From Thalassotalea sp. HSM 43 (GTDB taxonomy: Bacteria > Pseudomonadota > Gammaproteobacteria > Enterobacterales > Alteromonadaceae), in NCBI RefSeq assembly GCF_004752005.1, contig NZ_CP038493.1, positions 248,001 through 312,000 on the forward strand: a DNA stretch of 64,000 nucleotides, given 5' to 3'. The notes beneath the pieces were generated by a model, which worked only from the letters and a program-made list of their open reading frames with translations, had not been told where the DNA came from and ran no database searches. Made by a program: the position numbers and the translations under genes. Position 1 is the stretch's first letter. Each line of letters starts with the position of its first letter. This document shows positions 52,335-54,734 of this stretch, in pieces.

Positions 52335-52478
52335 ATGATGATGACAGGATGTTTTCAGTTAACAAACCTAAGCCATAAGCCCACCGCAAAAGCCCCCTCT
52401 GTTTGCGACGCAAACCTGCTTATGAAGTTGCAGTTATATAAGCCCTATATGTCAGATGAATCGATAACAAATCTGTAA
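52335..52478 (+). CDS. Small ORF, 47 residues, two cysteines
   Basis: Begins with three Met (MMMTGCFQLTN) and contains a second Cys in PSVCDAN; no signal peptide or Gly-Gly leader. AAGGA lies 4-10 bases before the three ATGs, a good ribosome site. A hairpin at 52504-52545 follows. I do not recognise a family. It could be a small regulatory peptide, or a chance open frame within a leader; the ribosome site argues for translation. Confidence 0.45.
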   Translation: MMMTGCFQLTNLSHKPTAKAPSVCDANLLMKLQLYKPYMSDESITNL

Positions 52479-52503
52479 TAAACCAACCACCCAAATTAAA
52501 AGA

Positions 52504-52545
52504 ATTTTGTCTGTCGTTTTACCCCTTTTCGAACGACAGCAAAAT
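52504..52545. other. Hairpin after the 47-residue ORF
   Basis: ATTTTG-T-CTGTCGTT pairs with AACGACAG-CAAAAT (14 bp, one bulge) around a 13-base loop. It lacks a T-run on the plus strand, so termination is uncertain. Confidence 0.6.
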
Positions 52546-52854
52546 GAAAGTTAATGGATTAACTTTCACAGGAAGCCCTCAAAGGATTGAGCAATTGCAG
52601 GATGCATTGTGTACATGGATGTAGCCAAGGAGTGGCAAAAATCTTCACCGAGTAATCAGGTGAAGTAACGAGCATGATTGGGTCTGCTGTCTTACGGATA
52701 ATCCCTAACCAGTAAGCAGCAGTGCCCGGTCATGTGAGATCGGCACAGATGTTTCGCAAGTTATGGACAGACAAGCGAAACACACGAGCGGAGCGACGTA
52801 CAGTATGATGCCCTTTCATTCTGGGTTACAGGACGTAACGATGAATGACCAGAA
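52546..52854 (+). ncRNA. Candidate structured RNA with GGA-loop hairpins (CsrA-sequestering type)
   Basis: Ten hairpins can be drawn in 309 bases. Loops with GGA: 52546-52567 (loop TGGA, 9 bp), 52578-52591 (AAGGAT), 52592-52609 (AGGAT), 52612-52623 (TGGA), 52624-52636 (AGGAG), 52751-52781 (7 bp, GGA in the 17-base loop) and 52819-52854 (inner GTTAC/GTAAC stem, loop AGGAC). Others: 52643-52665 (CTTCACC), 52684-52722 (11 bp, one bulge, loop starting GGA) and 52723-52745. GGA in hairpin loops is the CsrA/RsmA recognition element found many times in CsrB, CsrC, RsmY and RsmZ. No clear terminator and no GacA box are seen, so it may be a leader of the RAYT message instead. It was recognised by eye. 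Confidence 0.6.
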
Positions 52855-52927
52855 CGTTGTACTGATGCTCTACCGATCTTTTTATCTGTCTATATAGCTG
52901 TATAGGCGCTATAAACGAGGAGTAAGC

Positions 52928-53713
52928 ATGCCCAGAAAACCGAGACATTATCTAGCCAATGTGCCGCATTATATTTTGCTGTCAGGTCATAACAAGCAGG
53001 CGATATTTTTTAACGAGCAAGACTATCAACAATTTTGTCAGTATTTGAGTATGATGATGCGCAAATACCACATCGCCATTCATGCCTACACTTTACTCGA
53101 TAATCAGGTGCATTTATTACTTAGCGCCAGTGATGAAGAAGCGATACCGCGGGCGATTCAATACCTCAATAGCTGTTATGTAAAATACGTTAACCGCTGC
53201 TATGAGCGCAGTGGTACCTTGTTTCAAGGGCGACACAAAGCCAGTATCGTTGACCCAGATGGCTACCTAATCGCCTGTATGGCGTATATCGAGACTCTTT
53301 ATGGTCGTACTTGCTCAGAGGCAAACGATGCTCATACTTACCCTTATTGCAGTTACAGTGCCAACGGCTGCCTAGAGCAAGAGCAAGAGCAACAACCTAG
53401 CATAGAGCCACAAATCGCAGAGCTTATTGCCGAAATCATCACACCGCACCCAAATTACCTGCGTCTGGGCACTGATAAACTCAATCGACAACAATATTAT
53501 CAGCAGTTATGTATCGACGAAGTTGATGAACCAACCATTAAGTTTATCGAAGACAATCTGAAGATTAACTTCCCGATTGCTAGCCCATATTTTATTCGCA
53601 ACCTGAGCTTTGAAACCCAATTGTTGTTTTCACATAGCAAACGAGGTCGACCACGAAAACAGAAAAAGTCACTGTTTGGTTTTATGTTAAGCGCCAGAAA
53701 CCCGCTTTTATAG
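52928..53713 (+). CDS. REP-associated tyrosine transposase (RAYT, Y1 family), degenerate active site
   Basis: A 261-residue Y1-transposase-like protein. It has the N-terminal MPRKPRHYLANVPHYIL, RSGTLFQGRHKASIVD and a Tyr near 120 in AYIE, all typical of RAYTs, which bind and cut REP hairpins in single-stranded DNA. The usual HUH metal motif (NHVH) reads NQVH (Gln60-Val61-His62), and the usual NPVRA after the Tyr is TLYGR, so activity is doubtful. The C-terminus has an AT-hook-like KRGRPRKQKK. AGGAG lies eight bases before the ATG. No terminal repeats or flanking duplications are apparent. Confidence 0.85.
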   Translation: MPRKPRHYLANVPHYILLSGHNKQAIFFNEQDYQQFCQYLSMMMRKYHIAIHAYTLLDNQVHLLLSASDEEAIPRAIQYLNSCYVKYVNRCYERSGTLFQGRHKASIVDPDGYLIACMAYIETLYGRTCSEANDAHTYPYCSYSANGCLEQEQEQQPSIEPQIAELIAEIITPHPNYLRLGTDKLNRQQYYQQLCIDEVDEPTIKFIEDNLKINFPIASPYFIRNLSFETQLLFSHSKRGRPRKQKKSLFGFMLSARNPLL

Positions 53714-53822: not shown

Positions 53823-54734
53823 CTATTCGAGGATATCTCGTAAGAATTGCTCAAACTCGCCATTCACTTCAGGGTGGCGTAAGCCATAAACCACATTGGC
53901 TTTCATGTAGCCAATTTTTGAGCCACAATCGTGCGACTTACCGGTCATATGAAACGCTTCTACTGGCTCGACTTTCATCAAACTGGCAATGGCATCGGTT
54001 AATTGAATTTCATCACCAGCGCCTGGTGGGGTAAATTCCAATAACGACCAGATCTCTTTTGACAACACATAGCGCCCAACGACGGCTAAATTCGATGGTG
54101 CATCTTCTAATGCTGGCTTTTCTACAATTGCAGTCATCGCATGTGATTGCCCCGGCTCGATGTCTTCGCCACCACAATCTACCACACCATAGCTGCTTAC
54201 CAATTCTTGTGGTACTGGCTCTACCATAATCTGACTGGCGCCTGTGTCTTTAAATTTACTCAGCATGGCGGCTAAGTTTTCTGTTTTTGGATCGCTGGCT
54301 ACGTCATCAATTAACACATCGGGTAAGACAACCACAAATGGCTCTTCACCAACAATTGGGCGCGCTTTTAATACCGCATGACCAAGGCCTTTGGCTTCCC
54401 CTTGGCGTACATGCATAATGGTGACATCTTTTGGGCAAATTGCCTGCACTTCATCCAATAACTGACGTTTTACCCGCTTCTCAAGGGTGGTTTCTAATTC
54501 AAACTGTTTATCAAAGTGGTTTTCGATAGCGTTTTTAGAGGAATGCGTCACTAATACGATTTCTTTGATCCCGGCGGCGATACACTCGTTAACGATGTAT
54601 TGAATTAGCGGTTTATCAACCACAGGTAGCATTTCTTTGGGAATGGCTTTAGTCGCTGGTAACATGCGGGTACCAAGGCCAGCAACAGGAATAACGGCTT
54701 TTTTAATAGATGAGAATGGCTGAGTTACAGACAA
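53823..54734 (-). CDS. galU: UTP--glucose-1-phosphate uridylyltransferase
   Basis: GalU makes UDP-glucose from UTP and glucose-1-phosphate for surface polysaccharides and trehalose. The 303-residue protein has the nucleotidyltransferase N-terminus [41 protein letters not shown] and [14 protein letters not shown]. The start is TTG at 54734 with AGGAA seven bases upstream. Length equals E. coli (302). Products would feed the dehydrogenase and epimerase at 59.4-61.7 kb. Confidence 0.96.

Follow-up and report, generated by a model that had tools for sequence, protein, structure and literature searches.

A conserved chain of GGA-loop hairpins upstream of a RAYT-family gene in Thalassotalea, probably a second Csr-type RNA of the genus

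The hairpin chain and its neighbours

The window, a stretch of 64,000 nt from the 4.01 Mb genome of Thalassotalea sp. HSM 43 (G000:C1:248001-312000; G numbers denote genomes and L numbers loci), carries a chain of short hairpins, followed by the gene for a RAYT-family protein and a convergent galU-like gene (Table 1). The segment 52546-52854 holds 10 GGA triplets, and the predicted RNA, at ~52504-52883 (~380 nt), exceeds this segment on both sides through an extra 5' hairpin at 52504-52545 and a 3' domain that runs to ~52883.

Table 1. Features of the locus, with the separate csrB-like locus of the same genome
Feature	Position	Strand	Basis
Possible ORF of 47 aa ahead of the RNA; ribosome-binding site AAGGA	52335..52478	+	ORF scan
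Hairpin H0, loop TTACCCCTTTTCGA (14 bases)	52504..52545	+	Fold; closest homologue L014
Hairpin H1, GGA loop (TGGA, 52555-52558)	52546..52567	+	Fold; alignment A2
Hairpin H2, GGA loop, CTCAAAGGATTGAG	52578..52591	+	DNA-parameter fold; most leaders have a counterpart on a different stem
Hairpin H3, GCAGGATGC	52592..52609	+	Fold; 91.7% paired in A2
Hairpin H4, TACATGGATGTA	52612..52623	+	Fold
Hairpin H5, GCCAAGGAGTGGC	52624..52636	+	Fold; counterparts in other leaders include GGCCAAGGATGGCC, GGTCAAGGATGACC, TTGCCAGGACGGCAA
Middle region, longer hairpins, GGA at 52696 and 52765	52640..52785	+	Fold
3' domain, long stem, apical GTTACAGGACGTAAC (52825-52839), end ...GCTCTACCGATCTTTTT	52786..52883	+	By-eye match to homologues
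RAYT-family protein (Y1_Tnp), 261 aa	52928..53713	+	Pfam PF01797, motif alignment
galU-like gene, convergent neighbour	53823..54734	-	Coordinate comparison
Canonical-looking csrB, locus L234	~G000:C1:415,200-415,500		R1 weak match and inspection

The fold of 52500-52930 has a z-score of -5.86 with RNA parameters, none of 100 shuffles being as low, and of -6.55 with DNA parameters. Within the 700 nt upstream of the RAYT gene, 5 of 13 GGA triplets lie in loops at a pairing limit of 60 nt (shuffle mean 0.55; 0/100 shuffles reach 5); for 52500-52890 alone 4 of 10 lie in hairpin loops (shuffle mean 0.52; 0/200 as high), and the number of GGA loops varies with the folding settings from 4 to 7. In the RNA minimum-energy fold of 52500-52930, from which positions were taken by eye, GGA occupies the loops of H1, H3, H4 and H5, a loop near 52765, and GTTACAGGACGTAAC. 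H2, preceded by a single-stranded GGA at 52571, is absent from this fold and present in the DNA-parameter fold. These six loops together with H2 agree with an earlier sequence-only reading of this DNA, in which at least seven of ten hairpins exposed GGA in the loop; the five consecutive GGA hairpins that it placed within 91 bases are H1-H5 (52546-52636).

Windowed identity is lower in the middle region than in the chain. A crude consensus scan found neither a promoter nor an intrinsic terminator at the RNA, and no recognisable terminator between it and the RAYT gene. A search of the genome itself gave no second copy of the chain, the best other match, own palindromes aside, covering 17 of 431 bases at E 0.43. 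The middle region also contains a match to mir-2066 at 52671-52736 (30.8 bits, E 0.00049), which could be taken as the sign of an unrelated hairpin element; mir-2066 is an animal microRNA family, its gathering score is 100 bits and the match covers the middle region only, so we regard this explanation as highly improbable and the match as presumably due to chance. No unrelated RNA or mobile-element family emerged as a better match.

Small ORFs of 36 to 78 aa, beginning with ATG and preceded by an SD-like site, occur ahead of the chain in 11 of the 13 homologous loci examined (L015 and L051 have none that meets the criteria), though chance may account for some of them. Their pN/pS values are 0.46-0.63 in three pairs among L017, L018 and L020 and about 1 in L019/L021, and the 47-aa ORF of the window barely resembles the other upstream ORFs (best E 0.16). 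These values give weak evidence of coding, the ORF of L017, L018 and L020 being possibly real.

The RAYT-family protein and its group

The window protein matches PF01797, the Y1_Tnp domain, at E 1.7e-8 and 35 bits (cut-off 23), and scores below the cut-off of NCBIfam NF047646. Relatives were sought by protein search in 295 family genomes and by profile searches in 15 genus and 394 order genomes. The subgroup of the window RAYT scores 346-415 bits against profile A1 and lies entirely within the genus, the next RAYTs reaching at most 238 bits; two more distant genus members with the same type of leader (L051 in G115 and L053 in G249) bring the total to 11 of 15 genus genomes. Profile A1 had no match among PDB chains at E 0.001, and catalytic residues were therefore assigned from the alignment with intact RAYTs and from the motif description given in PMC6006769.

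In the window protein the HUH motif reads Q60-V-H62 (H to Q at position 60), Tyr120 is retained and the metal-ligand Asn has become Leu124; the combination of HUH with Tyr...Asn that marks an active HUH nuclease is incomplete. A recount of motifs over 60 RAYT loci (76 locus rows less 16 repeats of the same place) separates the 11 members of this group, hereafter the dead group, from 47 that retain H-x-H, Tyr and Asn, with two partial cases (L030, L040). HUH is broken in 11/11 dead-group RAYTs and intact in 47/47 other RAYTs compared. The metal-ligand Asn is changed in all 11, twice to Gln, the ligand in IS200-type enzymes according to the motif account of PMC6006769, and the catalytic Tyr is changed in six, to F in L017, L018, L020 and L053 and to H in L019 and L021. 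This loss of catalytic residues, which had no place in the sequence-only reading, is matched by the phylogeny: in a tree of 58 RAYTs, of unknown root and with L051 and L053 on very long branches, the 11 fall on one side of a branch with support 100/98.

The reading frames of the dead group are intact, with pN/pS values of 0.13-0.17 for close pairs and, between the window and L014, where synonymous sites are nearly saturated, of 0.45. The protein is thus maintained under purifying selection, yet very probably no longer an HUH nuclease. One member, L016, carries a long C-terminal extension.

Two kinds of repeats were seen elsewhere. Upstream of other RAYTs (e.g. L026, L033, L039, L041 and L042) lie repeats whose ends resemble AAGGGGTCAGAGT or CCAATGGGGTCAG; these are probably the REPs of another RAYT group. 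Tandem arrays of 48-56-base units occur at L088 (G000:C1 ~400,900-401,220), L098 (G000:C1 ~3,043,300-3,043,520) and L087 (G115:C14); their units fold into hairpins with GGA in the loop, for example CTGCATGGATGCAG, GTACATGGATGTAC and GTTCAGGATGAAC, and the arrays may be CsrA-binding arrays or REP-like repeats.

Homologous leaders and linkage to the RAYT gene

Eleven leaders of 700 nt each, taken upstream of the dead-group RAYTs and including that of the window, were compared. GGA ranks first of the 64 triplets by count in loops, and its loop fraction (67/159, or 42%, against 11% for all triplets) is the highest among triplets seen at least 30 times. Loop GGA exceeds all 100 shuffles in 9 of 11 leaders; the measure is weak in L015 (2/13 GGA, 8/100 shuffles as high) and L053 (4/14, 1/100). 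The antisense strand holds 0-3 loop GGA per leader. Within the genus, the intact RAYT L052 of G237, used as a control, has 5 GGA in its leader with none in loops, and the galU contig of that genome ends after ~550 nt. The mean number of loop GGA is 6.09 in the 11 dead-RAYT leaders versus 0.90 in 40 intact-RAYT leaders, a difference for which the Mann-Whitney p of 2e-7 is only indicative, as the sequences are related.

Across the leaders H1 presents a constant GGA loop on differing stems. In the MAFFT alignment A2 of nine leaders H1 is 93.8% paired, with both-sided changes in 5 of its 10 pairs; for H1 and H3 together 93.1% of cells are paired and 6 pairs have changed on both sides, a level reached by 0/500 shuffles, while a slid alignment gives at most 37% paired. 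H2 was left out of this count because its 4- and 5-nt loops misalign, and it was compared among leaders by eye, as were H4 and H5; the counterpart of H3 in L015 is without GGA. The H0 loop of L014 (TTACCCCTTTTCGA) is identical to that of the window, its stem differing in letters with pairing preserved; H0 was not recognised in more distant leaders. Between the window and L014, GGA is kept at 8 of 11 sites against 133/438 (30%) for all triplets, and among L017, L018 and L020 at 11 of 14 against 170/779 (22%). A 3' domain with apical ACAGGA is common to the RAYT-linked L018 and L020 and to the RAYT-less loci L111 and L108, with 11 predicted pairs, 2 of them changed on both sides, and a consensus energy of only -6.97 kcal/mol.

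The hairpin chain is thus real, conserved and Csr-like, with the features of a CsrA-sequestering RNA: many GGA, several of them in loops, kept while stems vary. The CsrB/RsmZ-like architecture proposed from the letters alone is borne out by the conserved loops, by covariation and by a CsrA gene in the genome, and the GGA loops, whose lack of conservation among homologues had been named beforehand as grounds for abandoning the idea, proved to be conserved.

All 11 dead RAYTs stand directly behind a GGA-rich chain in the same orientation, and none of them was seen without one. galU adjoins the locus in 9 of 11 genomes; G159 and G249 keep the pair of chain and dead RAYT at a place away from galU. 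The chain also occurs at galU in two genus genomes in which no RAYT was found at the thresholds used: G194 (L111; 100% complete) has 13 GGA in 331 nt, 6 in loops, with 0/200 shuffles as high, and G294 (L108; 78% complete, with a contiguous galU locus) has 9 GGA in 371 nt, 3 in loops, with 7/200 shuffles as high. Neither has an ORF of at least 50 aa between chain and galU. The RNA can stand alone, without a RAYT, and is therefore more than a RAYT leader; the tie to the RAYT gene noticed in the sequence-only reading holds for every dead RAYT, but not in the sense of a simple regulatory leader.

The galU scan covered 27 newly taken family and genus loci (L122-L148) and 10 earlier galU loci, with 84 listed places outside it. 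The chain is present at L122, in the genus member G087, and absent at galU in G272. As a general site of the chain galU was rejected, since outside the genus no galU locus scanned has a comparable chain on the RAYT strand; the highest of these, L138, has 15 GGA with 3 in loops, and 24 GGA on the other strand of a GC-richer stretch, and at L135 the scan covered only 281 nt. The genome itself has a second galU-like gene (L120, G000:C1:891257-892141), whose protein is 85% identical and which adjoins no GGA chain.

These loci bear on the proposal that the RAYT mRNA has the chain as its 5' leader, where CsrA or the RAYT protein would bind the hairpins and the ribosome-binding site and repress translation, titration of CsrA being a side effect. 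Messenger leaders with several CsrA sites are known, the constant position directly upstream of the dead RAYTs without a detected terminator suits such a role, and in 7 of 11 dead RAYTs the ribosome-binding site lies within a GGA-loop hairpin of 4-6 bp. In the window, however, no such hairpin encloses this site (the stem is 2 long), ribosome-site stems of at least 4 bp also occur in 17 of 40 intact RAYTs without any chain, and the RNA beside galU in G194 and G294 has no RAYT to regulate. We lean against the leader proposal while granting it some plausibility. The ribosome-site hairpin itself was rejected as a special mark of CsrA control over the dead RAYT and adds no evidence, because intact RAYTs carry such hairpins too. 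CsrA control of RAYT expression, one of the two functions suggested earlier, accordingly finds no specific support, the hairpin being equally frequent in intact RAYTs without the chain. Among intact RAYTs (e.g. L028, L036 and L038) it is common for a hairpin of 4-7 bp, immediately before the start codon, to hold the ribosome-binding site in its loop, possibly as a general control element of RAYT translation.

It could also be supposed that the RAYT protein itself binds the hairpins, as single-stranded DNA or as RNA; they would then form a REP-like array, with GGA recognised by the RAYT and not by CsrA. RAYTs bind hairpins, according to the sections of PMC6006769 on this family, the dead RAYT is found only behind the chain, and the fold is equally strong with DNA parameters. 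On the other side, the chain persists in the complete genome G194 without a RAYT, it lacks the further copies within its own genome that REPs have, and its loop grammar is the same as that of the UvrY-boxed csrBs of the genus (GTTCAGGATGAAC, GCAAGGATGC). Mainly because of the missing dispersed copies and the RAYT-less loci, we put this reading aside as quite unlikely.

Csr context and known systems

The genome encodes CsrA (G000:C1:2829324-2829479, 88.8 bits), as do 13 of the 14 genus genomes searched, this one included. Rfam at gathering score gave no match in the window, so that the search for Csr-family models proposed with the sequence-only reading yielded nothing above that score; a permissive scan of the chain gave 12.8 bits for CsrB and 14.4 bits for RsmY, far below thresholds, and the score stays under the gathering threshold of RF00018 (CsrB) and its clan. 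The CsrB model is above threshold in 0/14 genus genomes. Among its best sub-threshold matches in the genus are two of the RAYT chains, in G178 (23.3 bits, E 0.007) and G283 (19.7 bits); others are separate csrB-like loci. Across the order, the CsrB model has a match at E 1e-5 in 199 of 394 genomes, with a score above the threshold in 133.

A search for the UvrY-box pattern followed by inspection revealed csrB-like loci in six genus genomes (G178, G249, G194, G237, G052 and G115), each with a perfect-pattern box, a run of GGA and a T-rich terminator. A model built from the 5' ends of these loci (R1) matches strongly in 8 of 14 genomes, six by construction and two new (G224 and G210). It also matches weakly in the genome under study (G000:C1:415440, 24.4 bits), at L234, which has a one-mismatch UvrY box lying 187 nt upstream, 13 GGA in 340 nt and a terminator, and whose neighbour of 174 aa resembles, by eye, that of the csrB of G178. 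A weak match in G139 (L233) lies within a coding gene and is not a csrB. L234 scores low on the loop measure (2/13 GGA in loops, 18/200 shuffles as high), so that the loop measure does not define the class. R1 has no match to the window RNA and scores 17.4 bits inside L018 and L019.

The csrB of G178, with its perfect box, scores 29.4 bits and is also below the Rfam threshold, and L234 has no Rfam match up to E 0.5. As UvrY-boxed or canonical-looking csrBs are missed as well, the Rfam miss is uninformative here, and within a single genus failure to reach the Rfam CsrB threshold says little. No UvrY/GacA box with fewer than two mismatches lies upstream of the chain in 13 loci, and none occurs in the window between 51371 and 54768; matches with two mismatches were seen in L020 and L016, where they fall within the RNA or past it, and in L111, ~500 nt ahead of it. 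As controls, the same scan found the box at 3 of 4 csrB loci (one mismatch) and at the csrB of G178. The genus thus has its canonical-looking csrB at another place, and the window RNA comes in addition to that one. The window RNA is not a canonical CsrB, and of the CsrB/RsmZ-type RNA proposed earlier the Csr-like kind stands while membership of CsrB proper falls, with the sub-threshold Rfam scores, the missing box and the separate csrB.

Could the chain nevertheless be an ordinary csrB homologue missed by Rfam, and the RAYT gene have come to lie beside it by chance, travelling with the galU region? Csr RNAs diverge quickly and often escape detection, as the canonical-looking csrB of this genome escapes Rfam, and the galU site common to 9 of 11 dead RAYTs would be explained by vertical inheritance alone. 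The pairing nevertheless survives away from galU in G159 and G249, loss of HUH coincides with linkage to the chain in 11/11 cases, and intact RAYTs of the genus (L011 in this genome; L052, L054 and L055) have no chain. This explanation is a serious one, to which we give somewhat less than an even chance.

Taken together, these results make it likely that the chain is a CsrA-sequestering RNA outside the Gac/UvrY route, tied to a RAYT that has become domesticated and is nuclease-dead. The genus probably has in it a second RNA of the Csr type, one without a UvrY box, beside the separate csrB. The short hairpins and linkers of the ~380-nt RNA would present GGA to CsrA dimers; CsrA so sequestered would free its mRNA targets, and the RNA would answer a signal other than Gac/UvrY. 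The dead RAYT is probably a domesticated nucleic-acid-binding protein, expressed together with the RNA and predicted to bind nucleic-acid hairpins. CsrA binding, transcription and the role of the protein are what we infer beyond the observed architecture, conservation, covariation, linkage and residue loss. It is also conceivable, if unlikely, that the RAYT has been recruited into the Csr network, where, by binding either the GGA hairpins of this RNA or hairpins in other RNAs, it tunes CsrA uptake or RNA lifetime, the pair being a module that moves as one outside Gac/UvrY. If the favoured interpretation is true, the genus has two CsrA-titrating inputs, the UvrY-boxed csrB and the window RNA with another trigger; it would also be a clear case of a RAYT domesticated once catalysis was lost and with a specific RNA as its candidate partner, and the long-standing question of how vertically inherited RAYTs serve the cell would become testable.

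Like CsrB/CsrC and RsmX/Y/Z, the window RNA consists of short GGA hairpins and linkers, is intergenic in a genome with CsrA, and belongs to a set with 10-17 GGA per RNA or leader in which stems change and GGA stays. Unlike them, it is sub-threshold in Rfam, lacks a near-perfect UvrY/GacA box and a detected intrinsic terminator, and is followed by a RAYT-like gene. The csrB at L234 has loops such as CAGGATG and AAGGATGC and a similar number of GGA; its box, terminator, place and neighbours set it apart from the window RNA. In marine relatives, the Pf1-Pf3 RNAs of Pseudoalteromonas fuliginea are GGA-rich Csr sRNAs, several per genome and CsrA-bound, to which the window RNA is alike in GGA richness; Pf1 differs in having a GacA-like box and a terminator, and the portions of the two sources that deal with these RNAs mention no RAYT (PMC9927453, PMC11882849).

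A link between Csr RNAs and transposase-like genes has one apparent parallel. In Shewanella oneidensis, csrB1 and csrB2 flank a 'transposase', SO_1616, of 1203 bp, and in other Shewanella the two csrBs are adjacent, unlike in MR-1, as described in the relevant part of PMC3171408; from that description rather than from its sequence, SO_1616 looks like an inserted element and not a RAYT, and was rejected as a precedent. Beside CsrB loci from the order scan and in 20 further csrB stretches (L149-L198), searched over ~1.5-4 kb each in part of the 199 CsrB-matching genomes, no RAYT was found at E <=1 except at the RAYT chains L096 and L097. Literature on RAYT with CsrA, or on CsrA with transposase expression or transposition, describes no such pair in the sources within scope, which left out most subscription papers.

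The window protein has the Y1_Tnp domain in common with the RAYT/TnpA-REP proteins treated in PMC6006769, and is most closely related to RAYTs from its own order; the dead group departs from them in the loss of HUH (11/11), of the metal-ligand Asn (11/11) and of Tyr (6/11). On the RNA side, the IS200 5'tnpA sRNA of Salmonella has 3 GGA, and its authors name CsrA as a partner worth testing (PMC12594629, in the part concerned with this RNA). According to the same part of that source (PMC12594629), it differs from the window RNA in having no GGA hairpin chain, in being Hfq-bound and derived from a mobile element, and in belonging to another transposase class; the resemblance lies in its being a structured RNA with regulatory function that originates on the 5' side of a gene for a Y1 transposase.
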